64,000 nucleotides of DNA from IMG/VR virus record IMGVR_UViG_3300009009_000002, positions 62,001 through 126,000 of that record. The stretch is one strand, 5' to 3'. Below are positions 9,136 to 56,444 of the stretch, piece by piece. A program made the position numbers and the translations under genes. Source of the DNA: a virus. How positions within the stretch are numbered: the first letter of the stretch is position 1; each line of letters begins with the position of its first letter. The notes beneath the pieces are model-generated. The model saw only the letters and a program-made list of their open reading frames with translations. It made no database searches and had not been told where the DNA came from.

Positions 9136-10539
9136 TTATTCTAATATAAGAGTAATTTCAATGTAGTTACAAGGATATGGAGGAAGAACTGATAATGACA
9201 CTATTATGGTGTCAGGATTATTTTCATCCTGCATTATTAAGTCTATTCTTCCATCTACTATTACTCCTCTTGATTTTAAAGTATCCATAGTAGAATCAAG
9301 AGTTCCTTTAACCATGCTTATAAGTTCAGGAGTAATATTATATCTTCCTATATATACTTCACATGCATTTCTTAAAAGTTTAGCGCAATAATCTTCAATA
9401 GCTAGTATTGAATTTTCTTTAAATTGTAATGTTGACATATCAGTTGATAGTTGATGTCTAATTGTTATAGGAGATGTAGAGTTTTCTTGTGTTAAAATCA
9501 TAACTCCTTTTTCTGCTAATTGATTCATTTGAGTCCTTATCATTTTAACACCCTTTAATTCATTAAATCCATTTAAAGTCACTCTAGTTAATGACCTTTG
9601 TGGAGGATTAGCCCATTGTGCACCTGCAATTGCACAAGCTAAATAAGGAGCATCTAATTCTCTTAGAGTTCCATCGCCTAATAATCTAGTAGCTTTATCT
9701 GGATACATAACACTTACTCTTCTGTTATATATAAATTCAGATAAACCGCCAACCTTTGTCAATACATCACTGAAAACAGTACCTTCAGGATCTAGGTCAG
9801 TGTATGCTTTTCCGAGGATAGCACATCTTTCCATTCTCTCTTCAACAGAAGACATTTCAGTTATATGAGCTATTACAGCGTCTTGAATGTCTTTAGTGTT
9901 ATCCATTATAACTACTCTCCACATGTCTTTTATAAATCTAGCATGTGTTTCAATTGCAGCTATATAATCAGCAACAGTAACTTCTCCATCATAATTAACT
10001 TGTAATACATAAACTGTAGGAGCTCCTTGCTCTAGAACTATTCTTGCTCCTAATGATACAGGTGATAGTGGGTATCCACTTTCGTTTTCTTGTACCTCAG
10101 GACCGAATAAAGATGTTACATCAGCTATAGTTCTACATAACTTTGGTTCAAATTGAGAATCCTCAACATTATAAACTAAAGTTACATAATAAGTTGAACC
10201 AGCTTCAGGTCCACCTGAATTCCAAGTTATTTCATTTGAGTCAGCAACAAAAGTATAATTACCTGTATCAGGGTCAGGATCTGCACCCTCTTCAAAAGGA
10301 ATCCATTCACTGATAATTCCTCTTTTTGAGCTTCCTATATAAGCTATAGAAGCTACACTTGTAAAAGGAAATATATCTGTGTCGCCACTTTCCGCTCTAA
10401 CTATTGCAACAGTCTCTCTTAACTTACTTGCACCTGTTCCAATAACAAGTGGTATCATTGATACTTCACCTGGAATTAAAGGACCAGTTCTAGCGGTATT
10501 TTGCACTTCTAGGTATACGCCCGGTTCTCTGTAAGCCAT
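9136..10539 (-). CDS. Contractile tail sheath protein
   Basis: 467 aa, ATG start after GGAGGG. The N-terminus 'MAYREPGVYLEVQNTAR' and following 'IPLVIGTG' are typical of phage sheath proteins, as is the C-terminal 'PPYPCNYIEITLIL', which forms the strand exchanged between sheath subunits. Residues ~175-290 form the variable outer domain, with 'ARFIKDMWRVVIMDN'. Role (family knowledge): wraps the tube and contracts to drive it through the envelope. Its presence identifies the phage as a myovirus. Of the tail genes this is the most confidently recognised. Confidence 0.92.
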   Translation of the reverse strand: MAYREPGVYLEVQNTARTGPLIPGEVSMIPLVIGTGASKLRETVAIVRAESGDTDIFPFTSVASIAYIGSSKRGIISEWIPFEEGADPDPDTGNYTFVADSNEITWNSGGPEAGSTYYVTLVYNVEDSQFEPKLCRTIADVTSLFGPEVQENESGYPLSPVSLGARIVLEQGAPTVYVLQVNYDGEVTVADYIAAIETHARFIKDMWRVVIMDNTKDIQDAVIAHITEMSSVEERMERCAILGKAYTDLDPEGTVFSDVLTKVGGLSEFIYNRRVSVMYPDKATRLLGDGTLRELDAPYLACAIAGAQWANPPQRSLTRVTLNGFNELKGVKMIRTQMNQLAEKGVMILTQENSTSPITIRHQLSTDMSTLQFKENSILAIEDYCAKLLRNACEVYIGRYNITPELISMVKGTLDSTMDTLKSRGVIVDGRIDLIMQDENNPDTIIVSLSVLPPYPCNYIEITLILE

Positions 10540-14279: not shown

Positions 14280-15314
14280 TTACATTTCTTCAAGTGAGCC
14301 GTAACCTTTAATCTTTCCTTCTTCTTTAGCCATTGCGCCCTTAGTATCATCACTAAGAAGAATCTTGTCATCTCCAGGAGTGAAGTCTAAGATTAATTTA
14401 GCAACAGCTTTTTGTGATGCAAGATAAAGTCCTAAGAACTCAAACATGAATAATCCTTGCTCAAGTTTATTAGTAACTTCTGTTAATCTTACAGTTAAAT
14501 CTTTAAGTATAGGCATTCTTCCTACGAAATCTGGCTCTGAGAATGCATATATAGTATTCTTTCCAACAATTCTTGAAGTGATTAATTTAACACTTCCCCA
14601 AATTGAATATTTAACGCCTGACTCTAACATTTCTCTTTGAGTCAATTGGTCTATTTCATTTTGAGCCCAAACTAGAATATCATCTAATCTGTCTTGTTTC
14701 ATAACAAAAGCAGCTAGAGGAACATCATGTTGAGACATACATTTTTTTAAGCTAACTAAATGAGTTTTGTAAAGTAGAGTATCAGCGCTTGTAACTATTT
14801 GTGTGTCATGCTCAGGATTTACAGCGTCTCCGCTTCCCATAAGCAATCTATCAACTAAATCTAAGATTTTTCCATCTTCGATTTTAGCAACCGCTTGACC
14901 TGACAATTCTCTAACTCTTTCTAGATAGTTAAATTTTTGAACTAACATTCTTTTTAAATGAAGAGTAGTATCATCACTTGTAATAGTCATGATTCCTACA
15001 TTAACTCCATCGCCCTCGATTTGATATCTTGGCACTTGACCATCATCAGCATAAAAAGCTGCATGAGAATCGAAATCTTTTGGATAATAGAAGTAAGGTT
15101 CACCATTTATAAGATGAAGCTCTTCTGAAGTTACGTTGTGAGCTAATAATACTTGTCTTCCAAATGATTCATAGTCTCTTGTTTCCCTTATAAATGGAGG
15201 GAGCTTTTCAAGAGCTAATTTTTCTAATCCACCTGGGGACTCTAACAATTTTCCTAAGTTATAATCAGCATTTTGAGTTTCACTTGCAGTTTTAATTTTC
15301 ATAATTCCAGCCAT
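14280..15314 (-). CDS. Major capsid protein (HK97 fold)
   Basis: 344 aa, ATG after GGGAGGAC, followed by a strong terminator. Size, an N-terminal helical arm and the features 'EPYFYYPKDFDSHAAFYADD', 'ELSGQAVAKIEDGKILDLVD' and the C-terminal 'GLYLASQKAVAKLILDF' fit an HK97-type capsid protein of a myovirus. It sits between a decoration-like gene and neck genes, downstream of protease and scaffold. The N-terminal ~35 residues carry K-x-A sequences ('KIKTASE', 'GLEKLALEKL') that could be cut by the prohead protease. Identification rests on gene order and overall character; the fold needs confirming by structure prediction. Confidence 0.78.
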   Translation of the reverse strand: MAGIMKIKTASETQNADYNLGKLLESPGGLEKLALEKLPPFIRETRDYESFGRQVLLAHNVTSEELHLINGEPYFYYPKDFDSHAAFYADDGQVPRYQIEGDGVNVGIMTITSDDTTLHLKRMLVQKFNYLERVRELSGQAVAKIEDGKILDLVDRLLMGSGDAVNPEHDTQIVTSADTLLYKTHLVSLKKCMSQHDVPLAAFVMKQDRLDDILVWAQNEIDQLTQREMLESGVKYSIWGSVKLITSRIVGKNTIYAFSEPDFVGRMPILKDLTVRLTEVTNKLEQGLFMFEFLGLYLASQKAVAKLILDFTPGDDKILLSDDTKGAMAKEEGKIKGYGSLEEM

Positions 15315-21266: not shown

Positions 21267-21284
21267 TAGTATAAGATATAAAAG
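21267..21284 (+). promoter_or_regulatory. Conserved phage promoter motif, copy 1
   Basis: TAGTATAAGATATAAAAG, 49 bases before the TTG start of the first rightward gene. Same 18-nt motif as at seven other intergenic sites. No TTGACA-like -35 box at the right distance. Confidence 0.65.
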
Positions 21285-34670: not shown

Positions 34671-34814
34671 ATGGAATATAAAAATCATCCAGGATTTATC
34701 GCTTTTAAAGCTTCTAATGTAAAAGAAGATGTAAGCTGTAAAGAAGAAAATATTGATAAAGATATCGTTGAGCCTGAGAAAAAGAATGAAGGTGGTGACG
34801 AAGGCAAAGAGTAA
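34671..34814 (+). CDS. Small acidic protein (47 aa)
   Basis: ATG with AAAGGAGG seven bases upstream. Encodes 'MEYKNHPGFIAFKASNVKED' followed by an acidic Lys/Glu-rich tail ending 'EGGDEGKE'. No motif recognised except a FKAS sequence reminiscent of the head-protein motif. Its stop falls in a GGCAAAGA / TCTTTGCC hairpin just before the next gene. Unknown function. Confidence 0.5.
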   Translation: MEYKNHPGFIAFKASNVKEDVSCKEENIDKDIVEPEKKNEGGDEGKE

Positions 34815-34833
34815 AATCTTTGCCTTAATACTT

Positions 34834-36684
34834 ATGAGAAAATTATCTGATTCTATAATAAAAGAAGCATGTGAAGAACTAAATGTTGAAGGAAAGCTAG
34901 AAAAAAAGGCTTTAAACTTTGCAGATTTTTCTTTTTTGCCAGGATCTATATTGGGCTCAATAACTGGCTCAATTATAGCTGGGAATAAAGTTAAAGCTGA
35001 GAACCTTCAAAGAAGAATGGAAGAAGAGGACAGAACAGCTTTAAGCGGAAATTATTATAACCAGGCTCAAAATATAGTTAATAACTTAAAAGTTGTATTC
35101 ACGCCATTTGGAGTTATATATATAGTAAAAGATGGCCCTAAAGAAACTACGATTGAAAATATAAACACAAATGAAATGAATACAGCTATGTACTCTGCTT
35201 GGCAAGCTAAAGATGCAGAATACTTTAAAAATATACTATTAAACAAAATGCAAAGTGAGCTTCAATTTGTTGAACAAATGTTTGCAAAAAAAATGGTGGA
35301 AAAACAGCTTGGTATAAATAATACGATAAAACAAGAAAAGAAAGCATCTATAGATTTTAATGACTTAACTTTATATGAAACTTTAGAGTATGTATCAAAA
35401 ATGAAGGATATGTATTCTAAACAAAATGAAGCTACAGAGAAGATAGCATCTCTTTTAATTAATGAGATGGATGAAAGAGAAGATGATTATGTTATATCTT
35501 TAAAGTTAGAAAGACCAGTAGAAAAATATGCTTTCTTCGGAGAGGCTTTAAAATTTATGGGGCTTGAAGTAGGAAGTAAAGACATAAAATCATTACAAGG
35601 AAAATTTCTTAATCCATCACATTTAAATAATAGAGTTCAAGTAGGCTTTTTACCTGATAGAGTTGTTTTTATAGTTGATAATAAGGTTATGTCTTCTCTT
35701 CTTGCTATGGATATGAATGAGGAGGGATTTGAGAATTTTAATAAAAGTAATGAAGGTTACTTTAGAAACTTATTTAAAGAAGAAGCTAAAAAAGGAATGT
35801 TAAGAATTCAAGGTAAGATTCCGCCTAATTCTCCTTTAATGAAAATGCAAGAAAAAAAAGCATCTTTTGAGGATAATGACTTATCTCAAATCTTTAAAAG
35901 AAACGACATACATCCTTTAATTTATTATAAAGCTTTAACAAAAACATTCGGTGATACATGGATTTCATGGGACGGCAATGCACTTGTTAAAGCAATAGAA
36001 AACTCTTTTAATTTAAAAGATGGTGTACCTAGTATTCCACTAAATAAAATATTATCAATAGAAGTTTGTAATTCTAGCTATACTCCATATACAAGTAAGC
36101 ATGCTTTCGAGAAGATAATAAGAGGTTTTACTGAAAAATCAGTTAACTTTATGGAGAGAGAAATCTCAGATATAACTCCAGAAGATTTAGCTCTAGGTAT
36201 AGATGCTTTAGATTTAGTAACTCCTAATGATGATATATATGATAATTTCAATCATGAAGTCTTCTCTCATATAATTGAAATCTTATTGATAAATAATTGT
36301 AAAATATTTTATCCGTCAGAAATGACAGACTCTGTTTTAAAAGATGAATTTTATAGTCAATTAAATGAATATCTTTTAAATGCTACAAATAAAAAAGATA
36401 TTGAAGCTATAGACAATAAGAAGCTTGAGAGTAAAACCATAAGTAATAATACGATAATAAATAAAGTATCTTTATCTATACTTAACAATATAAGGAAAGT
36501 AAAAAAATCTTCTGATTTTGATAATATAAAATTCATTTCAGATGTACTAAATAAAACAAGTATAGAAGATAATATAAAAAGCATTATTGAAAAACAAGTT
36601 ACAAATAATATATTTTTAGATGAAGTATTGGTTATCAAAACAAGAGTATTAAAAGAGCAACTCGCTTTTCTTGAGCTAAATTAG
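34834..36684 (+). CDS. Large probable virion protein, unknown function
   Basis: 616 aa if translation begins at ATG 34834. In-frame starts further upstream (ATG 34786, GTG 34795) overlap the preceding gene, and the best ribosome site is not obvious, so the N-terminus is uncertain. A hairpin GGCAAAGA / TCTTTGCC (34803-34824) lies just before the chosen ATG. Near the N-terminus come 'IIKEACEELN' and 'GKLEKKALNF', then a hydrophobic segment 'SFLPGSILGSITGSIIAG'. Further K-x-A motifs are 'KQEKKASIDF', 'ATEKIASLLI', 'PVEKYAFFG' and 'MQEKKASFED'. It directly precedes the portal gene. Likely an internal head protein. Confidence 0.48.
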   Translation: MRKLSDSIIKEACEELNVEGKLEKKALNFADFSFLPGSILGSITGSIIAGNKVKAENLQRRMEEEDRTALSGNYYNQAQNIVNNLKVVFTPFGVIYIVKDGPKETTIENINTNEMNTAMYSAWQAKDAEYFKNILLNKMQSELQFVEQMFAKKMVEKQLGINNTIKQEKKASIDFNDLTLYETLEYVSKMKDMYSKQNEATEKIASLLINEMDEREDDYVISLKLERPVEKYAFFGEALKFMGLEVGSKDIKSLQGKFLNPSHLNNRVQVGFLPDRVVFIVDNKVMSSLLAMDMNEEGFENFNKSNEGYFRNLFKEEAKKGMLRIQGKIPPNSPLMKMQEKKASFEDNDLSQIFKRNDIHPLIYYKALTKTFGDTWISWDGNALVKAIENSFNLKDGVPSIPLNKILSIEVCNSSYTPYTSKHAFEKIIRGFTEKSVNFMEREISDITPEDLALGIDALDLVTPNDDIYDNFNHEVFSHIIEILLINNCKIFYPSEMTDSVLKDEFYSQLNEYLLNATNKKDIEAIDNKKLESKTISNNTIINKVSLSILNNIRKVKKSSDFDNIKFISDVLNKTSIEDNIKSIIEKQVTNNIFLDEVLVIKTRVLKEQLAFLELN

Positions 36685-38675: not shown

Positions 38676-38891
38676 ATGAAAAGAGGAATAAAAACATTTA
38701 TACTTCCTATGCAGGATAAAGAAGCTTCAATTTTTATGAATAATAAAGATATAGTTGTAACACTAAAGGAGAGACACTTTGCCCCAAAAGAGGGATTACT
38801 ATATTTATATATAGAATATGACGACTTCGCTCCTGAAGGTGAAGATTATGAAGATTGTGATGAAGGTGGGTGTTTATTAAATGATACATGA
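38676..38891 (+). CDS. Small protein translationally coupled to the RNA polymerase
   Basis: 71 aa, ATG after AAGGATGTGA, 12 bases past the portal stop. It overlaps the polymerase start by 11 bases, so the two are probably translated in tandem. N-terminal half mixed alpha/beta ('RGIKTFILPMQDKEASIF'), C-terminal quarter very acidic with two Cys. No family recognised. A small polymerase-associated subunit would be an attractive but untested idea. Confidence 0.5.
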   Translation: MKRGIKTFILPMQDKEASIFMNNKDIVVTLKERHFAPKEGLLYLYIEYDDFAPEGEDYEDCDEGGCLLNDT

Positions 38892-41800
38892 AAAAACTGA
38901 AGATTTAAAAAGAAGACTTATGAATTTTATGCAGAGGAATACACCCATTAAGGCTGATACTAGAAGTTTACATATTGAGAACTTAACTATAACAGAGCCT
39001 TCAGCAGTAAATGATTTAGACCAACAGCTTAACATGAAGTATTCTGAATCAGGAAATTTAAAGGGTTGGCTTAGGGGAAATGTTACAGTTACAGACAATA
39101 AAACAAATAAAGAAATAGCAAAAACTAATCCGATAAATTTAATACCTGTATATTATATGACTGATAGAGGTACATATATAAGTAATGGTATTGAGAAAAA
39201 TATTTTAACTCAAATGAGATTAAAACCTGGAGTCTATACTGAAAAAGGTGCTGACATAAGAACCAATCTTATGTTTGATATGACAAAACAGTATCTTCCT
39301 AGAATAGATATTATATTTGATCCAGGTGCAATGTCATTTAAAATTATTATAAAAAGAGGAAAAGACACTAAATTTGATGGCATTGGATTTTTAAGAGAAT
39401 TAGGTTTTTCTGATGCTGAAATAAAAAGAGCTATTGGTAACGATTCAGTTTCTGATATGCTATTTTCAGTAAGCAGAGAAAGAAAAAGTATATACGATAT
39501 ATTTAAAGCTATAACTGGTAAAACATCTAGTGATACGCCAGATAAAACAAGAGATATGTTATTTTCTTATTTTGATAATGAAATGACGTTTGGAGAAGAT
39601 GGTAAGGAGTCAGTTAAATCAACTATAAATTCAAGTTCTAAAAGTTTAAATAAAGATATAATATTAAGGTCTGTAAATAAAAACTTTGCGGTATTTAGAA
39701 ATGAAGTTGAAGAAGACGATAAAGATGATTTAAGATTTAAAGTTGTATCAGATGATAATGATTTGATAATGGAAGAAGTTGCACAAGACTTTGAGGTATT
39801 TAAATCATCTGTAATAAATACTTTAAATACAAGAGAAGTTTTAAATTCATCAGACTTAAGAGGATTAACTAAGTTAGGGAAAAATATTGATAAATTCATG
39901 AAAGAAAGTGATTTATCGCAAAATCCGGAACAGACTAATCCACTAGAAATAGCATCCATTGATAGAAAAGTTACTCAGATAGGTGGGTTTCAAGGTATAT
40001 CAAAAGACAATGCTGACAAAGTTATTAAACCAAGAAACTTAAAAGCTATGGCAATTAATAGATTAGATCCAGTTGAAACTCCAGAGTCAACAAAGATAGG
40101 ATTAATAGAACATTTAACTCAAAGTGCTGAGGTTAAAAATAAAACTATTAGTACAGAGTTTATAAAAGTAAAAGATGGCGTTGCCGTAAATACTCTTGCC
40201 AATGTAGTTAAATTAACTCCAGATAAAGAGTATGACTCTAAAGTTGCCTTTTATGATTTAAGATATATAAGAAAAGATGGTAACAAAATAATATTTACAA
40301 AAGATGTAATTCCAGGAAGATATAAAAGTAAAATTCAAGATATTCATATAAGTGAAATACAGTATGTTGATAGAGCTCCGCAAAACCTTTTAAATTATGC
40401 TGCAAATATGATACCCTTCGTAAGTCATGATGATGGAAACAGAACACTTATGGGTACTAATATGCAAAGACAGGCTGTCTCAATTATCAACAGAGAAGTT
40501 CCACTTGTTATGTCTGCGTCTGACGATAAAAGGACATATGAAGATGTTATAGGGGAAAAATATGGGAAGCCAGTAAATTCAACGACTAGTGGAGTTGTAA
40601 AAGATATAACTTCATCTAGAATAATAATTAAGGATGAAAAAGGAAAAGAGCATGCTCATAATTATTACGACCATTTTCCTGTCAATCAAAGTTTTATCAA
40701 TAATGAGCTATTAATAAAAAAAGGACAAGAAGTAAAAAAAGGTCAAATGCTTGCAGAAGGATGGCAAACTAGAGACGGTAAACTTGCCTTAGGTGCAAAT
40801 GCAAGAGTTGCTTATATGCCATTTAAAGGCTTTAACTATGAAGATGGTGTAGTTGTAAGTAAAGACTTTGCTAATAAAATGTCAAGCGAAGAAATGCATC
40901 AAGTAGAAATTGAAATTTATTCTGACTACTTAGGTGGTAAAGGTAGTAACATACGGGATGAGCTAAAAAAGTACACAGTTAACCAAGAAATTTTAACTAG
41001 GCTAGATAAAGACGGAATAATAAAAGAGGGCTCATACGTAAAGCCAGGCAATATACTAGTGGCATTCTTAGCTCCAGAAGATAAATATGAAACTTATGGA
41101 CTATCAGAAGTCTTAGGAATTAAAAAGAAAAATGTAACTTATAAGCTGGGCCAAAAAATAATAGAGGAATCTAGTTATTTAGAAGGTACAGTTAAAAGAA
41201 TAAATATAATAGAAAGTCCTGAAGCAGGAATAAAACAAAAAATAGTAGTATCTCTTTTAAGTGAAAAGTCATTAAAGCTAGGAGATAAAATTTCTGGTAA
41301 GCACGGAAATAAAGGAATAATAACAAAGATACTCCCTACATCTGAGATGCCTGTAGCTGAAGATGGCAAAAATGTTGACTTAATCTTTTCTCCATTAGCG
41401 GTACCTTCAAGGAAAAATTTAGGCCAATTATTAGAAGTCAATGCTGGATTAATAGCAGAGAAAAAGGGAAAACCTTTTATTGTAAATAATTTTGACCCTA
41501 AAGAAAAAGAGAGAGTTGAAAAAGAATTAAAAGAAATAGGTATTCCTGATGGAAAAATGAAAGTTAGCTTAAGAGAAAGACAAGACGATGACAGCATTAA
41601 AGAAATCCCTGTAGACAATCGTGTTACAGTTGGCAATATGTATATAATGAAATTAAAACACAAAATTGATGATAAAGTTCAATCAAGAAGTAACATTGAA
41701 GGTGTTGCTCCTGAAAGAAAAACATTTATGCCTGCTAAAAAATTAGGTCAGGCACAAGGCGAAAAGTACAATCCTCAAAGACTTGGTGAAATGGAAATGA

Positions 41801-44800
41801 GGGTATTGCAAGCTCATGGAGCTGTTCATAATATATTAGAGAGCTCCACTATAAAAGCTGACGGTGGAGGAAATGAACAAAATAGAATAGCAATATACAA
41901 TGCTATAGCCACAGGAAAACTAGATAGCTTAGATTTTTCTGCCACTCCAGAGACTATAAATGTAATGGCTGATACATTAAAAGGGCTAGGCTTAAATGTA
42001 AAACCTATCAATAATGGAGATGTAGCTAAATCATTTGATGAAGCTTATGATAGTTTAGCTGTTGTGCCTATGAAACCTAGTCAAATGATTAAAATGATAG
42101 GTAAGGATAACGAGGTTACTCAGCCAAAAATGTATGACGCAAAAGCTGGAGGAAGACAAGTCCCATATAGAAGGGGGCTTGCTGACCCTGAAATTTTTGG
42201 AGATGATAAGAGCTCAGATTTAGAGGATAGAAAAAAATGGGGTTATATAAAACTTGGCACTCCAATTCCAAACCCTATACTTATGTCCAATGCATCATAC
42301 AATCCATACTCTTTAATAACTGGGATGAAAGATAGTCAGTTGAAAGAGTTAATGGACGGTAAGAAAGTTATGGTAATTGACCCTGAAAAATATGAGGCTT
42401 TTAAGGGTAATAAAGAAAAGATAGAGGAAGTAAAAGCGAATATGGATAAGCTAGGTTTTAAGCCTGGTGATTTAGTTGATCCTCAAAAGCTTGAAAAATT
42501 AGATTTAGATAGTAATGTAATTTTATGGAAAGCTGGAGGAGAAGGCATTCAGCATTTATTAGATAATGTTGATCTGGAATCTGAACTGAAAAAATCAGAA
42601 CAAAAACTAAAAGATGCCAAGCCTAAAGATATAGATAAACATTATAAAAAATATAAATCACTTTTAACATTAAAAAATAACAACTTAAATCCTGGTGACT
42701 TAATGCTTCACTATCTACCTGTTACGCCTCACTACTTTAGACCCACTCAAATGCAAGGTAAAAAAGTAGTATTGTCAGATTTAAGTGAACTCTATGGTAA
42801 TGTTATAAAATCTAATAACTCTATAATTAATAACTATGAAAGTGGCTTTGACATGATAGGTGACTCAGACCCTGAACAGGCTGCAAGACTTACTAGGTCA
42901 CTTTATAAGACAGTGTCTTATGCAACTGGAGACAAGGAATATTATCATCCACGAAAGAAACGAAAAATGCTAGGAATAATAGAGAGTTTAGGTAAAAAAG
43001 AAGGCCTTATAAGAAATAAAATGCTAGGGAAAAGAGTAGATTTTTCTGGAAGGTCAGTTATTGGTGTTGATCCTAACTTAAAGTTAGATGAGGTTGGAAT
43101 TCCTCTTGATATGGCTAAAAATATTTACAAGCCTTTTATAGTTAAAGAATTAATGAGTAGAGGCTTGGCTAAAGACAGAAAAGAAGCTACTAAGAAGATA
43201 AAAAAAGGTGATAGTGATGTTAAAAAGATATTAGATGATTTAGCAAAAGACAGACCAGTATTATTAAATAGAGCTCCATCACTACATAAATTTAATATAC
43301 AGGCTTACACTCCCGTTATAAAAGATTATCAGGATGGCGAAGCTGTGAAGATAATACAATTAAATCCGTTGTCTGTATCAGGCTACAACGCTGATTTTGA
43401 CGGGGACACTATGTCTGTCCACCTCCCTGTAACTGAAAAGGCCAATGAGGAAGCTAAGAAACTAATGAGACCATCAGATAATTTAATAAATCCTACAAAT
43501 GGAAAAATGATAGTTGAAATACGTCATGAGATGGCATTAGGCATATATTATCTAACGATGAGCTCTGACAAGGTAAAAGGTGAAGGTAAAACATATAGCA
43601 ATATAGAGCAATTAAGAAAAGATTTTAAAGATGGAAATATAAATGTAAAAGATAAAGTTACTATCGGAGGCAAGACATCAACAGCAGGTCAAGCAATGTA
43701 TAATTTACTCTTACCTGAAAAATATAGAAATTATAGTTTAGCATGGTCCGCAAAAGATATATCTAAGATGTTTTTAGAGATGTATCAAGAAGCAGAAAGA
43801 ACTAATGGAAAAGCTATATCTATAAGTGAAGTTAGTAGAATATTAGATAATGTAAAAGATTTAGGTTTTGAAGCATCTACAAGGTCTGGAATTAGTATAG
43901 GTATTGGTGACTTTAAAAAGATAGAAGATGCAGATCAATTATTCGATTCACATGTGAAAAAAGAAATGAAGACAAATAAAAATCCTAATGATGCTAAAAT
44001 ACAAGGTTGGCTTAAAGCTGAAGGAGAAATACAGGATAGGCTTAAAAAAGGTGAAATTTTAGCATATGATAATCCTGTTCAAATAATGATGGCATCAGGT
44101 GCAAGGTCAAAACCTGACCAAGTAAGAAGAATGATGGTAAGTGTTGGTGTTGGTATGGATTTGACCGATAAATTAACAAGCCCAGTTAAACACTCTCACT
44201 TAGATGGATTATCTCCACAAGAGTACTGGACTCACAGTTACGACTCTAGAAAAGGTATGTATGATAGAACCGTAGAAACGAGAGAGCCAGGAGCATTCTC
44301 TAGAGAGGTATGGAGTGTAACTCAGGATATTGTGATAAAAGAAAAAGATTGCAAGACTCGTGACGGAATAAGTATACCAAAATCAAACCCATCAGCATTA
44401 GGAAGATTTTTATCTGAAGATGTTTTAGGTACATCTTCAATAATTGCAACGAGAGATTCGCTAATAACAAAAGAGGTATATGATAAAATTTATAAAGATG
44501 AAACTGTGAAAATGATAAAGATAAGGTCTCCATTAAAATGTAAGGTTGTAAATGGCCTTTGTCAGAAGTGTTACGGAACTATGCCTGGTACTATGCAAAC
44601 TGCAAGTATAGGCTCTCCAACAGGAGTTATAGCATCACAAGCATTATCTGAGCCTGCAACGCAGATGACAATGAATACATTCCATAGTGGAGGAACAGGG
44701 TCAGCTGCAACAGTTGGATTTCCTAGAATTAAACAAATACTTAATTTATCAAAAGATAGTGAGAGTAAAGCAGTCTTAGCTAGAACATCGGGCAATGTTA

Positions 44801-45711
44801 TATCTATCAAAAAGGGTGCAAAGGGAACATTTGATATAGTTAGAATAAGTAATGTTGACCATAACGTTCCTCACACAAAAGAAGGTGCTAGTCAAAAGAT
44901 TAAAGTTTCTATTGGTGATAATGTAATAAAGGGTGACTTTTTAACTTACGGAGATATAGATGATATAAATGCTGGAGAAAAATTAATATTATCAGCAGAC
45001 CCAAGAGAGATGTTTGCGTTGAAGAGTGAAGAGCTAGGTCAAGATAAGGCATGGGATTATACTCAGAACTATTTAACTAACAGCATACAAAGAGCTTATG
45101 AAGATACATTTGGAATAGGGGCTGTAGATAATAGGCATTTAGAAACAGTGGTGTCTAAAATGACTTCGAGAGTTACGATAATGGATCCGGGAGATTCAAA
45201 CTTTATAAGAGGCGATGTAGTAGAAAAGAATCAAGCAGACCAATGGAACTCTATCAATGCTGGTGAGTTTAGTGTTAAAACTAAGAATGTAAGTAATGCA
45301 GGTGAAATCTTAAACAGTGTTGCGCATGAAACATATAAAGATAGAGCTGGAAATACAATAGTTTCAAAAGGTGATATGTTTACAGAAGAAAATATTCCAA
45401 AATTAATGTTAGCAAATATAAGCCAAGTAAAAGTTAAACCAAAGCCAGTTAAATATAATATAGAATTATTAAGTAAGAATCAGGCGGTAACAAAAGGGCA
45501 TGATAATTGGCTTAGTAATATGGGTCATGAAAATGTAAAAGAACAATTAACAAGAGCGGTTGTTAAAGGACAAGTTGATAAATTAAATGACCCTAGAACT
45601 AGACTCATGACAGGAAAGCTGTTAAATATCGGTGAAGGGTTTAATGCTGTTAAACAGAAAGCTAACAGTATTGCAAATAGGATGTTCAACTTCTTTAGTA
45701 AAGATGATTAA
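38881..45711 (+). CDS. Single-chain DNA-dependent RNA polymerase, beta and beta-prime subunits fused
   Basis: 2276 aa with no stop between the halves. Beta region: 'LDPVETPESTKIGLIEHL' (~395), 'DDGNRTLMGTNMQRQAVSI', 'MPFKGFNYEDGVVVS' (~645), 'KISGKHGNKGIITKILP' (~803), 'PSRKNLGQLLEVNAG', and the beta C-terminal 'RLGEMEMRVLQAHGAVHN'. Beta-prime region from ~1085: 'LPVTPHYFRPTQMQGK', 'LGKRVDFSGRSVIGVDP', 'LLNRAPSLHKFNIQAY', the catalytic magnesium loop 'YNADFDGDTMSVHLPV' (~1500), a bridge helix/trigger loop region 'SGARSKPDQVRRMMVSVG', the zinc site with 'DCKTRDG' and 'CKVVNGLCQKCYG', and 'SEPATQMTMNTFHSGGTG'. The N-terminal beta-prime zinc domain lacks cysteines. No alpha, omega or sigma gene is visible here. 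It lies directly after the portal gene, so it may be a virion or late polymerase. A terminator follows. Confidence 0.95.
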   Translation: MIHEKTEDLKRRLMNFMQRNTPIKADTRSLHIENLTITEPSAVNDLDQQLNMKYSESGNLKGWLRGNVTVTDNKTNKEIAKTNPINLIPVYYMTDRGTYISNGIEKNILTQMRLKPGVYTEKGADIRTNLMFDMTKQYLPRIDIIFDPGAMSFKIIIKRGKDTKFDGIGFLRELGFSDAEIKRAIGNDSVSDMLFSVSRERKSIYDIFKAITGKTSSDTPDKTRDMLFSYFDNEMTFGEDGKESVKSTINSSSKSLNKDIILRSVNKNFAVFRNEVEEDDKDDLRFKVVSDDNDLIMEEVAQDFEVFKSSVINTLNTREVLNSSDLRGLTKLGKNIDKFMKESDLSQNPEQTNPLEIASIDRKVTQIGGFQGISKDNADKVIKPRNLKAMAINRLDPVETPESTKIGLIEHLTQSAEVKNKTISTEFIKVKDGVAVNTLANVVKLTPDKEYDSKVAFYDLRYIRKDGNKIIFTKDVIPGRYKSKIQDIHISEIQYVDRAPQNLLNYAANMIPFVSHDDGNRTLMGTNMQRQAVSIINREVPLVMSASDDKRTYEDVIGEKYGKPVNSTTSGVVKDITSSRIIIKDEKGKEHAHNYYDHFPVNQSFINNELLIKKGQEVKKGQMLAEGWQTRDGKLALGANARVAYMPFKGFNYEDGVVVSKDFANKMSSEEMHQVEIEIYSDYLGGKGSNIRDELKKYTVNQEILTRLDKDGIIKEGSYVKPGNILVAFLAPEDKYETYGLSEVLGIKKKNVTYKLGQKIIEESSYLEGTVKRINIIESPEAGIKQKIVVSLLSEKSLKLGDKISGKHGNKGIITKILPTSEMPVAEDGKNVDLIFSPLAVPSRKNLGQLLEVNAGLIAEKKGKPFIVNNFDPKEKERVEKELKEIGIPDGKMKVSLRERQDDDSIKEIPVDNRVTVGNMYIMKLKHKIDDKVQSRSNIEGVAPERKTFMPAKKLGQAQGEKYNPQRLGEMEMRVLQAHGAVHNILESSTIKADGGGNEQNRIAIYNAIATGKLDSLDFSATPETINVMADTLKGLGLNVKPINNGDVAKSFDEAYDSLAVVPMKPSQMIKMIGKDNEVTQPKMYDAKAGGRQVPYRRGLADPEIFGDDKSSDLEDRKKWGYIKLGTPIPNPILMSNASYNPYSLITGMKDSQLKELMDGKKVMVIDPEKYEAFKGNKEKIEEVKANMDKLGFKPGDLVDPQKLEKLDLDSNVILWKAGGEGIQHLLDNVDLESELKKSEQKLKDAKPKDIDKHYKKYKSLLTLKNNNLNPGDLMLHYLPVTPHYFRPTQMQGKKVVLSDLSELYGNVIKSNNSIINNYESGFDMIGDSDPEQAARLTRSLYKTVSYATGDKEYYHPRKKRKMLGIIESLGKKEGLIRNKMLGKRVDFSGRSVIGVDPNLKLDEVGIPLDMAKNIYKPFIVKELMSRGLAKDRKEATKKIKKGDSDVKKILDDLAKDRPVLLNRAPSLHKFNIQAYTPVIKDYQDGEAVKIIQLNPLSVSGYNADFDGDTMSVHLPVTEKANEEAKKLMRPSDNLINPTNGKMIVEIRHEMALGIYYLTMSSDKVKGEGKTYSNIEQLRKDFKDGNINVKDKVTIGGKTSTAGQAMYNLLLPEKYRNYSLAWSAKDISKMFLEMYQEAERTNGKAISISEVSRILDNVKDLGFEASTRSGISIGIGDFKKIEDADQLFDSHVKKEMKTNKNPNDAKIQGWLKAEGEIQDRLKKGEILAYDNPVQIMMASGARSKPDQVRRMMVSVGVGMDLTDKLTSPVKHSHLDGLSPQEYWTHSYDSRKGMYDRTVETREPGAFSREVWSVTQDIVIKEKDCKTRDGISIPKSNPSALGRFLSEDVLGTSSIIATRDSLITKEVYDKIYKDETVKMIKIRSPLKCKVVNGLCQKCYGTMPGTMQTASIGSPTGVIASQALSEPATQMTMNTFHSGGTGSAATVGFPRIKQILNLSKDSESKAVLARTSGNVISIKKGAKGTFDIVRISNVDHNVPHTKEGASQKIKVSIGDNVIKGDFLTYGDIDDINAGEKLILSADPREMFALKSEELGQDKAWDYTQNYLTNSIQRAYEDTFGIGAVDNRHLETVVSKMTSRVTIMDPGDSNFIRGDVVEKNQADQWNSINAGEFSVKTKNVSNAGEILNSVAHETYKDRAGNTIVSKGDMFTEENIPKLMLANISQVKVKPKPVKYNIELLSKNQAVTKGHDNWLSNMGHENVKEQLTRAVVKGQVDKLNDPRTRLMTGKLLNIGEGFNAVKQKANSIANRMFNFFSKDD

Positions 45712-45996: not shown

Positions 45997-46014
45997 TAGC
46001 ATAAGATATAAAAG
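45997..46014 (+). promoter_or_regulatory. Conserved phage promoter motif
   Basis: TAGCATAAGATATAAAAG, 16 bases before the ATG at 46031 and 7 bases after a terminator T run, so transcription must restart here. Confidence 0.68.
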
Positions 46015-46291: not shown

Positions 46292-46309
46292 TAGTATAAG
46301 GAATAAAAT
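46292..46309 (+). promoter_or_regulatory. Conserved phage promoter motif
   Basis: TAGTATAAGGAATAAAAT, 16 bases before ATG 46326. It contains an in-frame ATG (46308) that is therefore unlikely to be the start. Confidence 0.66.
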
Positions 46310-47541: not shown

Positions 47542-49158
47542 CTATAACGTCTGACCATAAGCACTAGAAAACGCAATACCAGTATCTCCAGCTTCAGGAT
47601 ATAAAAGTTGAGCTAAATATGCATATATGCAGGAGTGCATACCATCGTCAGGTTGACCCTCTGGATGAGTGTAAATTAAATCTTCAGATCTTCCATTCTG
47701 ACTTTTTCTATACTCTTTCATTTCAGCTAAGTGATGGTCAAACATCCACATAAATTTATCTTTATCATAACCTGCCCATGCAACTCTTTGTTCATATACA
47801 AATCTTACATAGTTAGTTATAACTTTACTTCTATTTACAACCCATTTTAAATCCTTTTGGTCCCACTTTGTTTCTTCTTTTTGATTAAAAGAATAATAAC
47901 ATGCCATAACTCTTAATCCAAATCTCTTTTGAAGTTCTTTATATTGAGTAAAACCAAAACCCCAGTCAACTATACAACATGCAATTTTAAAAATCTGCAT
48001 TAAGTTAGATATATCTCTTAACTGATAATCAGGCTCTATCTCTTCACTTCTATGATATTTTTTAGTATAAAGCATCTGATACTTTCCTTCTGCATTAAAA
48101 GAAAATATGCTAACTATAGTAAATGATTTTTCTCCTTTACCCCAGTCTACCCCCATGAAGTTTCTGGTGTTCGTAAAATAGCCTTCTGCTCGATTATAAA
48201 GCTTAAAGGTGTTATTAGATATCTGAGATAGAATTAAGTGGTTAAATGGCTTTTCTGCGTCCTCATAGCTACGTCCTAAAACCTCGTTATGAAACTTATC
48301 CATTGAGTATGTTTCATACTTATCCCAAATGTCTCCAGGTAATATCCATGGCACCATAAGTTGCGATATTCTAAACCCATACATTTTTTTGCCAGGCTGC
48401 AAGGGATACCACATTCCACATGATATAGATTCTTTAGGAATTTCCATTCTACATTTTCTACATAAAAAAGCATCAGGGGATAAATTCTTAACCCCTAATA
48501 TCTGATATTTATTACAATGAGGGCATTTTACGACCCACTCATTTTGATTACTTCTATCCCAATACTGCTGAATTGTATTTCCGAAAGTCTTAGGTGTTCC
48601 TGTGTACCATGTAACTCTTATTCCTGCACCTGTATCTAAAGCATGAGACTGTGTTTCTTTTATAACAGGAATTGCATCTATGTGTATATCTTGTATTTCA
48701 TCCCCCCAGATTCCGTTACAAGTTATACCCCTTATATTATCTCCATATTCAAAGCAATGCTTAAAATAATTAACAGAGCCATTTGTGAACTCTTTTAACA
48801 TAACAGCTTGAGCACAATTTTTATCTATGTAACTCTTTTTTATTATGCTCTCCTGACTATACTCATAAAGCTTTCCTATTCTCTCTCTTGAAAATGTTCT
48901 GACTTGCTCTGTGAGTGGAGCAAAATATAAAGCCCTAAAATGAGGTATTAAAAGAGTATGATTAGCCATATGTACAGAACTTGTCGTAGATTTCTCTACC
49001 TGACGCCCCGACATTATCATACCCTCTTCTATAATACTATTATATATTGGCAATAGATAACTTCTATTTTTAAGCCTAAAAGGTTTCCCCTCTAACATAT
49101 AGACGCTTTCTGCAAATGTTGAAGGAATAACCTCTAATTTTTTTTGCTCTTCACTCAA
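47542..49158 (-). CDS. terL: Terminase large subunit
   Basis: 538 aa, starting at TTG 49158, which overlaps the stop of the upstream gene (TTGA). ATPase half: Walker A 'SGRQVEKSTTS' (~50-60), Walker B 'GIWGDEIQDI' (~149-158), coupling motif 'YTGTP' (~185). Then a zinc knuckle C212-x2-C215...C233-x2-C236. Nuclease half: 'FMGVDWGKGEKS' (~334), 'CCIVDWGFG' (~394) and 'DDGMHSCIYAY' near residue 510 supply the three acidic metal ligands of the RNase H-like fold. Role: packages the genome through the portal using ATP and cuts the concatemer. Unlike the head operon it lies on the minus strand amid plus-strand genes, in a three-gene unit. Confidence 0.9.
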   Translation of the reverse strand: MSEEQKKLEVIPSTFAESVYMLEGKPFRLKNRSYLLPIYNSIIEEGMIMSGRQVEKSTTSSVHMANHTLLIPHFRALYFAPLTEQVRTFSRERIGKLYEYSQESIIKKSYIDKNCAQAVMLKEFTNGSVNYFKHCFEYGDNIRGITCNGIWGDEIQDIHIDAIPVIKETQSHALDTGAGIRVTWYTGTPKTFGNTIQQYWDRSNQNEWVVKCPHCNKYQILGVKNLSPDAFLCRKCRMEIPKESISCGMWYPLQPGKKMYGFRISQLMVPWILPGDIWDKYETYSMDKFHNEVLGRSYEDAEKPFNHLILSQISNNTFKLYNRAEGYFTNTRNFMGVDWGKGEKSFTIVSIFSFNAEGKYQMLYTKKYHRSEEIEPDYQLRDISNLMQIFKIACCIVDWGFGFTQYKELQKRFGLRVMACYYSFNQKEETKWDQKDLKWVVNRSKVITNYVRFVYEQRVAWAGYDKDKFMWMFDHHLAEMKEYRKSQNGRSEDLIYTHPEGQPDDGMHSCIYAYLAQLLYPEAGDTGIAFSSAYGQTL

Positions 49159-50981: not shown

Positions 50982-51019
50982 AATAAATAGACTAGGGTTA
51001 AACCCCTAGTCTATTTATT
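50982..51019. terminator. Bidirectional terminator between convergent genes
   Basis: 16-bp perfect stem AATAAATAGACTAGGG / CCCTAGTCTATTTATT with a 6-base loop. It overlaps the end of the minus-strand gene. Confidence 0.82.
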
Positions 51020-52258
51020 ATCCTCATCCACTTCAAAACTTACTCCTAATTCATCTATACCCTCAATATCTTCTGGTATTATTTTTTCATCTAATGGCTC
51101 TATGCCAGACTCTTTTAATCTCTCATTTGTTTTTTTGATTTGCTCATCTAAAATATCTTCTGTTCTTTGTTTATAAAGTTCCATGAGTATTGCATTCGAA
51201 TGTTTATCTGCATTACCCGTTGATACTCCTGTCTTTATATTCTCCACTTTATCATGAGCAAAACTCATGATTTTTGCAACTTTAAATAATGAATCAACAA
51301 CATCTCTATCTTTGTGTCCGTCTAACTGTAGGAATCTCTCATAACCTTTAGCCACAACATCTGTGAACATTTTTTCAAAATCACCCTGTTCTGCTTGAGC
51401 TGTTCTAAAGGAGAACTCGGAATACACCATGTTTAATGTTTTAATATTATCATCTAATTCTTTAACTCTTTGTTCTGATTGTTTTTTAATAACTAATTTC
51501 TCTCCAACCTCTAAATCTTTATACGCTGACAAATTATCTATATCTTTTAAAAGATTAACTAATGCTGCCTTTTCGCCTTCTAATGTCTTTATTTTAGATT
51601 CTATATCATGAGTCTTTATATTGAAGAACACTTTCTTATAAAGACCTATATCATAATTAAAGATTTTCATATCTAAATTTTTATTACAATACTCGCATAT
51701 TCTAGAATCTGGAACACATTCTAATAACATTTTATCTACCAAATATCTTTTTGGATGAATTAATATTTTTTCTATAGATTGTCTCGTAAATGTTGTATCA
51801 ATTAATCTTTCACCATTTTGGTCAACAGGGACATTTGTAGTTGAGCCATAAAATCTGACTATTTCATTTGCCCATAGAGCATCTACCTCTAAATCTTTTA
51901 CCATTTTGCAAAAACTTTCTTGATCGTCTGGTGCATCAGATAGTTCAAGATTAAAATTTAATATATTTTTTTGAAATGCTTTACTCTTTTTATTTGTTAA
52001 TATTTTATTCTTGTAATCACTATATACGTATCCTAAGTTATATTGTTTTATTACAGGGTCTATCACATTTAAGTAATATATAACAAGATTAGGCTCGTGA
52101 GGAGCTGAAAGTCCAAGTTTGAAAAGTTCTGCCTTTATAAAAGTTGGAGAGTATCTTTTTGTTAAAAGATATCTTATATATCTTACGTGTGGTTTTGACT
52201 CAATTGCCTTTATTATGTTTATGCATCTTTCTTTGCTAAAATTAAAATCTGTAGCCAT
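51011..52258 (-). CDS. Unknown protein with coiled-coil region
   Basis: 415 aa, ATG after AGGGGGTAGAC. The N-terminal ~130 residues are helical ('PHVRYIRYLLTKRYSPTFIK'). Residues ~205-280 are a coiled coil ('IESKIKTLEGEKAALVNLLK'), and a CxxC is present ('RICEYCNKN'). The C-terminus is acidic. It forms a two-gene unit with a 100-aa protein. The size and helical start recall packaging or DNA-binding accessory proteins, but I see no diagnostic motif. Confidence 0.5.
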   Translation of the reverse strand: MATDFNFSKERCINIIKAIESKPHVRYIRYLLTKRYSPTFIKAELFKLGLSAPHEPNLVIYYLNVIDPVIKQYNLGYVYSDYKNKILTNKKSKAFQKNILNFNLELSDAPDDQESFCKMVKDLEVDALWANEIVRFYGSTTNVPVDQNGERLIDTTFTRQSIEKILIHPKRYLVDKMLLECVPDSRICEYCNKNLDMKIFNYDIGLYKKVFFNIKTHDIESKIKTLEGEKAALVNLLKDIDNLSAYKDLEVGEKLVIKKQSEQRVKELDDNIKTLNMVYSEFSFRTAQAEQGDFEKMFTDVVAKGYERFLQLDGHKDRDVVDSLFKVAKIMSFAHDKVENIKTGVSTGNADKHSNAILMELYKQRTEDILDEQIKKTNERLKESGIEPLDEKIIPEDIEGIDELGVSFEVDEDNK

Positions 52259-52665: not shown

Positions 52666-52683
52666 TAGTATAAGAAATAAAAT
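52666..52683 (+). promoter_or_regulatory. Conserved phage promoter motif
   Basis: TAGTATAAGAAATAAAAT, 27 bases before the ATG of a 71-aa membrane protein. Confidence 0.66.
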
Positions 52684-55120: not shown

Positions 55121-55138
55121 TAGCATAAGAAATAAAAG
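55121..55138 (+). promoter_or_regulatory. Conserved phage promoter motif
   Basis: TAGCATAAGAAATAAAAG, 26 bases before the ATG at 55165, divergent from the helicase gene. Confidence 0.67.
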
Positions 55139-55770: not shown

Positions 55771-55788
55771 TAGTATAAGGGATAAAAG
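55771..55788 (+). promoter_or_regulatory. Conserved phage promoter motif
   Basis: TAGTATAAGGGATAAAAG, preceding a tiny open frame (55802) and the 140-aa membrane protein gene. Confidence 0.66.
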
Positions 55789-56426: not shown

Positions 56427-56444
56427 TAGCATAAGATATAAAAG
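56427..56444 (+). promoter_or_regulatory. Conserved phage promoter motif
   Basis: TAGCATAAGATATAAAAG, 49 bases before the ATG at 56494 and just after a terminator. Confidence 0.68.

Follow-up and report, generated by a model that had tools for sequence, protein, structure and literature searches.

Natural cellular fusions of rpoB with rpoC are found in Helicobacter and Wolbachia. Among tailed phages, the two-barrel polymerases of the phiKZ/AR9 type do without alpha and omega and exist in a virion form, and their cores are distributed over at least four or five polypeptides (PMC7598289, PMC13282480). The same minimum of four or five polypeptides is given for phage multi-subunit polymerases in a 2026 review of jumbo phages (PMC13282480). 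Single-polypeptide two-barrel phage enzymes are also known, namely gp66 of the crAss-like phage phi14:2 and gp96/gp64 of P23-45; some of these are packaged, and they have been grouped with RNAi-type and other single-subunit polymerases (PMC10770324). In one report, the crAss enzyme showed no detectable homology to the COG0085/COG0086 models (PMC7481178).

Two further groups come closer to the polymerase described here. The first, and the nearest that bears a name, is that of the multi-subunit RNAP-encoding Caudovirales, or mReC (Weinheimer and Aylward 2020, PMC7481178). As far as the available text of that report goes, these are tailed phages with beta and beta' sequences that can be aligned to cellular homologues, retain NADxDGD and form a deep clade apart from cells; beta and beta' are treated there as subunits, fusion is mentioned for crAss-like phages only, and packaging, portal linkage and promoters are not discussed. 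The second group comprises the cultured Salmonella phage Arash (PMC10585845) and the Vibrio phages D69 (also cultured), D181 and D148, in which a portal gene and a small ORF are followed by a fused chain of beta and the N-terminal part of beta'. This chain is cut after the NADFDGD domain, and the C-terminal half of beta' (606-609 aa) is encoded by a second gene; the proteins are annotated plainly as "beta" or as hypothetical. In addition, one sentence of a 2024 study refers to derivatives of the cellular-type enzyme "with fused DPBB domains" (PMC10770324); relatives of the fused kind may therefore have been noticed already. A literature search, with most subscription papers and bioRxiv outside its scope, returned no report that joined a single chain, portal linkage, virion evidence and a promoter-like motif.

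The DNA analyzed here, hereafter the window, is a 64,000-nucleotide stretch comprising positions 62001-126000 of a 152,620-base IMG/VR viral record (G000). Like the phiKZ/AR9 enzymes, its polymerase is of the two-barrel type and comes from a tailed phage that lacks alpha and omega; unlike those far more diverged enzymes, it consists of a single chain that shares about 29% identity with bacterial beta/beta'. It also differs from the crAss-like enzyme in being of the canonical bacterial type, with NADFDGD, the second beta' zinc site and Pfam matches with E-values down to 2e-64. It falls in the same clade as the polymerases of Arash and the Vibrio phages, to which it is about 27% identical.

The mReC phages probably belong to the same broad lineage as the window polymerase. 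Judging from sample numbers, two of our contigs (L029 and L044) appear to share a sampling series with two of the contigs that serve as mReC references; a dedicated scan for the named mReC contigs returned none of them. The mReC capsid and terminase proteins are given in the available text as matching PF07068 and PF03237, respectively (PMC7481178); the window capsid protein matches phrog_2522 and phage G. A PF07068 search of 19 records yielded no matches, and the controls were equally silent.

The fused chain, its relatives and its ancestry

An earlier note, made from the letters of the window alone, had proposed that complete beta and beta' subunits are joined here in one phage protein. The features of the gene are as follows.

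38881..45711, plus strand: fused beta-beta' RNA polymerase, 2276 aa; a single ORF also in kin
38881..42012, plus strand: beta part, residues ~1-1044, with Pfam Rpb2_3/6/7
42040..45708, plus strand: beta' part, residues ~1054-2276, with Pfam Rpb1_1/2/3/5
41296..41316, plus strand: GKHGNKG, beta active-site motif, starting at residue 806
43387..43407, plus strand: NADFDGD, Mg-binding catalytic motif of beta', starting at residue 1503
44203..44298, plus strand: trigger-loop region, located by alignment; Tyr where cellular enzymes commonly have His, a residue that is variable in kin
44350..44571, plus strand: second beta' zinc site, formed by C1824, C1887, C1894 and C1897
45718..45739, plus strand: terminator-like hairpin and T-run, 7 bases 3' of the polymerase stop

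The translated frame is free of stops and does contain both GKHGNKG and NADFDGD, as had been claimed. The profile search that the earlier note had called for detected beta domains (Rpb2_3 at residues 350-418, Rpb2_6 at 568-937 and Rpb2_7 at 966-1042) followed in the bacterial order by those of beta' (Rpb1_1 at 1077-1379, Rpb1_2, Rpb1_3, and Rpb1_5 at 1776-2106). All of these calls exceeded the curated cut-offs, and no domain is inserted at the joint. When the whole chain was searched against the PDB, the top matches were bacterial beta' chains (E 8e-124); the first part of the chain matched bacterial beta chains (best E 1e-96). AlphaFold was applied to residues 511-1538, a segment that spans the junction; the resulting model had a mean pLDDT of 81.6 and a pTM of 0.65, and Foldseek matched it to bacterial beta in the PDB (E 1.6e-36).

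The chain contains exactly four cysteines, all of which lie in the second beta' zinc site. Zinc ribbon 1 of beta', which is made by four cysteines near its N-terminus, is absent from every phage member aligned, the window protein included; the cellular sequences inspected in the same alignment retain it, even those that are fused. By sequence, the window protein therefore classifies as a variant within the bacterial-type two-barrel superfamily that has lost zinc ribbon 1, not as a standard member. The word "complete" must accordingly be softened to near-complete, while the description of the protein as fused and nearly full-length stands. Loss of the trigger-loop His was considered as a family trait and dropped, as the residue varies among the phages and in one cellular row. 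In the rifampicin region, the aligned residues are N, E, I, K and T in the window protein versus F, D, H, R and S in cellular enzymes, at positions corresponding to 514, 516, 526, 529 and 531 of the E. coli protein; the window polymerase is predicted from these substitutions to be insensitive to rifampicin. Inspection of the called genes for the DxDxD active site of RNA polymerases revealed no other convincing case, and no second two-barrel polymerase was seen.

Kin that likewise have the fusion in a single ORF, 42-52% identical from end to end, are carried by several viral contigs, including ones of 167, 161, 102 and 40 kb, and one such relative resides on a contig binned as Bacillus. An IMG/VR profile search added 80 loci from 250 candidates, some of them on contigs already found. 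The 119 viral loci compared lie on about 104 distinct contigs, and beta and beta' share one ORF at 111 of these loci. Of the remaining eight, six have frames truncated where the contig ends, and two (L033 and L047) are genuinely split, in each case after the NADFDGD domain; none of the 119 loci is split at the beta/beta' junction. The one-ORF fusion is thus the normal state of a large phage clade and not an oddity, so that the fused enzyme, which had been called unusual, is real but not rare. The recurrence of the same single ORF on different contigs argues against a frameshift or assembly artefact, and the level of identity over the full chain implies purifying selection. As far as sequence allows, no stop or frameshift separates the halves. 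Split rpoB/rpoC genes in "phage" records from Enterococcus, Listeria and Salmonella were set aside; the two that were examined (OR846602 and MT836236) group with bacteria in the tree and appear to be contamination from the host.

A joint tree of 71 rows united all phage polymerases, those of Arash and D69 included, at the end of a long branch (SH-aLRT 100); within this group, the window family was itself a supported group, sister to the remaining phages. A tree calculated with the LG+C20 mixture model (38 rows, 951 columns) recovered the phage group at 100/100 on a branch of 1.23 changes per site, with the window family at 100/100 and the other phages at 100/100. Both trees lack an archaeal outgroup, which leaves the root unfixed, and the long phage branch means that the exact placement should be read with care. 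The window protein and its kin do not nest within bacteria in the joint tree, unlike the fused cellular rpoBC sequences of Omnitrophota, TA06, Elusimicrobia and their relatives, which are placed inside bacteria. These cellular fusions share the order of beta then beta', as seen here in Omnitrophota, and keep zinc ribbon 1; their position indicates that they arose separately, from an independent bacterial origin. The phage lineage with this design, of which the window polymerase is a member, is large, old and for the most part uncultured.

Genome setting, other subunits and a promoter-like motif

The genes around the polymerase, together with the structural genes that identify the phage, are listed below.

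34753..36684, plus strand: 643-aa protein upstream of the portal gene; a homologue (33-43% identical) occupies this position in L001, L002, L004, L018 and L051
36696..38663, plus strand: portal protein, 655 aa; phrog_16240, E 1.9e-18; 53-62% identical in kin, where it is also upstream of the polymerase
38676..38891, plus strand: 71-aa ORF that follows the portal gene and overlaps the start of the polymerase gene; a homologue or an ORF of like size holds this place in all five kin examined
47542..49014, minus strand: terminase large subunit; phrog_675, E 3.7e-56
14280..15314, minus strand: major capsid protein, nearest that of Bacillus phage G; phrog_2522, tblastn
9136..10539, minus strand: tail sheath (contractile tail); phrog_2839

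The record thus holds a contractile-tail set of tail sheath, major capsid protein, terminase and portal. Other products encoded in it are helicases, a toprim protein, a DNA ligase, a C-family DNA polymerase and amidases that bind peptidoglycan. A Gram-positive host is suggested by these amidases, by a 3D-domain protein and by the relative whose contig was binned as Bacillus. The 643-aa protein had no Pfam or PHROG match. The portal gene had been named in the earlier note as the neighbor of the polymerase, and this proved right, with the 71-aa ORF lying between the two. Comparison of that ORF with its positional counterpart in Arash and D69, also small, gave no support for homology (hhalign E 0.12). 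A portal homologue was found upstream of the polymerase in 66 of the 91 loci with enough sequence to judge and was not found in the other 25; in one subclade (of the L029/L038 type), no portal was seen upstream.

Alpha (PF01193) was detected in none of 19 records. In the 152.6-kb record of the window, neither omega nor sigma70 region 2 (PF04542) was found, and PF04545 gave sub-threshold matches only, the best of which, a 77-aa ORF, reads as a LuxR/GerE-type HTH protein instead of a sigma factor. BLAST and a small HMM built from the sigma factors of kin returned nothing convincing in this record. G001 and G002, two close kin, do have sigma70-type proteins, in which regions 2 and 4 are both present; sigma70 region 2 also occurs in Arash and D69. 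The G001 sigma gene is located between homologues of the window genes at 51011-52258 and 52961-55093; the syntenic interval in the window is short and holds no sigma. The earlier statement that alpha, omega and sigma are missing nearby is supported by these searches of the whole record, but the lack of sigma is not a family trait, given G001, G002 and the phage sigma in Arash particles. Candidates for the factor that guides the window enzyme are a host sigma, an unrecognized phage factor, or none.

Counting k-mers in the stretches 5' of genes yielded TAG(C/T)ATAAG-NN-ATAAAAG. A slightly shorter form, with at most one mismatch allowed, occurs 16 times in the window's record against 0.2 expected; 15 of the sites are intergenic, all are on the plus strand, and the intergenic ones precede plus-strand gene groups. 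In G001, GTATAAG-NN-ATAAAAG occurs 20 times against 0 expected (18 intergenic), with one copy about 70 bases before the sigma gene, and in G002 GTATAAG-NN-ATTAAAG occurs 13 times against 0.6 expected (12 intergenic). The form common to the family is (A/G)GTATAAG-NN-AT(A/T)AAAG. The following sites are in the window.

21267..21284, plus strand: promoter-like motif TAGTATAAGATATAAAAG
45997..46014, plus strand: promoter-like motif TAGCATAAGATATAAAAG
46292..46309, plus strand: promoter-like motif, one mismatch
52666..52683, plus strand: promoter-like motif, one mismatch
55121..55138, plus strand: promoter-like motif
55771..55788, plus strand: promoter-like motif
56427..56444, plus strand: promoter-like motif

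The motif has no separate or conserved -35 part, and it was not found before the portal-polymerase genes or before the capsid and tail genes. Matches to sigma70 consensus promoters around the polymerase gene were at chance level (72 versus 74.6 expected). The three phages retain the motif even though their polymerases agree in no more than about half of their residues, and the best explanation is that it serves as promoter for a transcription system specific to the phages.

Probable packaging and competing explanations

The case for packaging, which the earlier note had raised from the position of the gene after the portal, is made by analogy with Arash. There, the portal (gp204) is followed by a 92-aa protein (gp205) and by gp206, the 1525-aa fused beta-beta' N chain; the C-terminal half of beta', gp216, is encoded further along the genome. 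The gene order of D69 is similar. In the Arash particle proteome, the portal-adjacent gp206 ranked first of all virion proteins with 3516 spectra, compared with 1210 for gp216, 467 for the sigma factor gp10, 877 for the portal and 1333 for the capsid protein (PMC10585845). Divided by length, these counts, which are a rough measure only, correspond to 2.3 spectra per residue for gp206, 2.0 for gp216, 2.0 for gp10, 1.5 for the portal and 4.3 for the capsid protein. They fit a roughly stoichiometric core with one sigma, at or above the level of the portal, and are as expected of a packaged holoenzyme. Because the Arash counterpart is the protein most detected in particles, the window phage probably injects its own polymerase together with its DNA.

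The explanation that we favor, with rather more confidence than doubt, is that the gene encodes a single-chain, virion-packaged polymerase, free of alpha and omega, that transcribes early genes from the putative promoter motif. The intact fused frame, the conserved catalytic residues, the phage-only ancestry, the portal linkage, the conservation of the motif and the published virion abundance of the Arash counterpart are observations; we infer polymerase activity, packaging in the window phage, independence of alpha and omega, recognition of the motif by the fused polymerase, and timing. The product would be a catalytically competent DNA-dependent RNA polymerase of the bacterial two-barrel type. 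The beta-beta' link would render the assembly step that depends on alpha intramolecular, such that the core could fold without alpha or omega. The polymerase would be made late in infection along with the portal gene, packaged in the virion, and carried into the cell with the DNA. There, the injected enzyme would start the early genes at (A/G)GTATAAG-NN-AT(A/T)AAAG, probably without the host polymerase and aided by a sigma or an equivalent factor, which in some phages would be a packaged sigma; a sigma made early, as in G001, may then redirect it to other genes. Against this explanation, Arash is distant and has its chain in two pieces. Moreover, no sigma was found in the window phage, though its kin have one, and the motif is missing before the late genes; the host polymerase may thus be needed for at least one class of genes.

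Of the competing accounts, the one that survives best holds that the polymerase is made after infection by host-driven transcription, remains outside the virion, and serves middle or late genes, its place beside the portal being inherited synteny. The block in which the gene resides is indeed mixed: besides the portal, it holds genes for a RuvC-like resolvase, a helicase and a nucleotide kinase. In addition, the motif does not precede the polymerase gene. Further, 116 proteins were detected in Arash particles, and the authors allow for contamination by abundant intracellular enzymes, which could carry a polymerase into particle preparations (PMC10585845). However, both Arash polymerase chains have more spectra per residue than the portal, and of the two annotated Arash sigma factors only gp10 is in the particles, gp196 being absent from the particle protein list (PMC10585845), a pattern unlike random carry-over. 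The portal linkage also persists across very diverged genomes. We consider this account unlikely, though deserving of weight.

A second possibility, which we view as quite unlikely, is that the fused core still works together with alpha, omega or sigma of the host, as a bacterial-type enzyme whose choice of promoter is altered. Its sequence is near enough to bacterial beta and beta' to retain the surfaces for such partners, and the failure to find sigma70 region 2 in the window's record agrees with a borrowed factor. Set against this are the sigma factors encoded by kin, the lack of a conserved -35 part in the motif, and the cultured enzymes of the phiKZ/AR9 type, which are not stably associated with host alpha, omega or sigma (PMC13282480).

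Recent capture of a naturally fused cellular rpoBC, such as those of Omnitrophota and some other bacteria, is very improbable. Fused cellular genes encoding about 2500-2700 aa do occur in several MAG lineages, but they nest among bacteria and keep zinc ribbon 1, whereas the phage fusions lack it and stand apart as a clade of their own, whose branch measures about 1.2 changes per site; capture was rejected on the trees, in neither of which does the window protein, as far as sequence allows, fall inside a host rpoBC clade, the phage clade being apart from all cellular rpoBC sampled. That the gene is an inactive relic or an assembly artefact is scarcely credible, as its sole point is the variable residue at the trigger-loop His position, and the frame runs for 6.8 kb with no stop, keeps all catalytic motifs, and recurs as the same fusion on many contigs.

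For this widespread lineage as a whole, the favored explanation would extend to a common design: the entire bacterial-type catalytic core made as one polypeptide, loaded into the particle beside the portal, set free along with the DNA, and self-sufficient in early transcription with its own promoter code, the single chain being ancestral and the two-piece forms of Arash and D69 later cuts. We hold belief and doubt in this extension to be evenly balanced. If these proposals are true, the family would provide a natural single-chain RNA polymerase core of the cellular type, free of alpha and omega and expressible from one gene, and the real need for those two subunits would become directly testable. 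The loading of a 250-kDa enzyme and its passage through portal and tail would likewise become testable, as would the kinship of phage and cellular polymerases, and the shared promoter-like motif is a ready template for in vitro assays. On the same condition, many phage genes now annotated as "beta" or "hypothetical" would be candidates for virion polymerases.

Small ORF and promoter-like motif around the polymerase gene

A small ORF occupies the interval between the portal gene and the fused polymerase gene:
38676-38891, small ORF with an acidic C-terminal end

No family match was found for this ORF; at its position, kin have a homologue or an ORF of similar size. A promoter-like motif, (A/G)GTATAAG-NN-AT(A/T)AAAG, was common to the window and the kin genomes G001 and G002. 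In the window, its copies are located as follows:
21267, 45997, 46292, 52666, 55121, 55771 and 56427, + strand, promoter-like motif

Within the window's record, the copies were confined to a single strand, and almost all were intergenic.

Inserts, bacterial fusions and other gene orders

Inserts of 230–530 aa were present in the 2390–2870-aa fused polymerases of relatives:
L024, L028, L031, L032, L043, L050, L166, L192, L205, L207, L219, L222, L223, L225, loci of insert-bearing fused polymerases

The inserts were located at conserved motifs (after NADFDGD, within AFH, within HTPE and after HGNKG). Because LAGLIDADG domains were present in all three of the relatives scanned, and an intein-splicing domain in one of them, the inserts look like inteins.

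Fused rpoB-rpoC genes (products of ~2500–2800 aa) were also found in bacterial MAGs:
L058, L060-L063, L064, L065-L067, L071, L093, L112, L129, loci of bacterial fused rpoB-rpoC

The MAGs were those of Omnitrophota, TA06, Elusimicrobia, Vermiphilus and one proteobacterium, and the bacterial fusions occupied at least two separate positions in the tree.

In the phages collection, split rpoB/rpoC genes occur in several “phage” records that are marked UNVERIFIED and appear to consist of host DNA; both records examined (OR846602 and MT836236) clustered with bacteria in the tree. A distinct phage arrangement was observed in Cobetia phage Carin-5 (L133), in which a gene annotated as sigma is followed by a beta'-like gene and then a beta-like gene.

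Sigma factors of phage Arash

Two genes of Salmonella phage Arash (OQ632216), gp10 and gp196, are annotated as sigma factors. Of the two, the published proteome of the particles includes gp10 but not gp196 (PMC10585845); this suggests that gp10 is an early sigma factor that is packaged together with the polymerase core.
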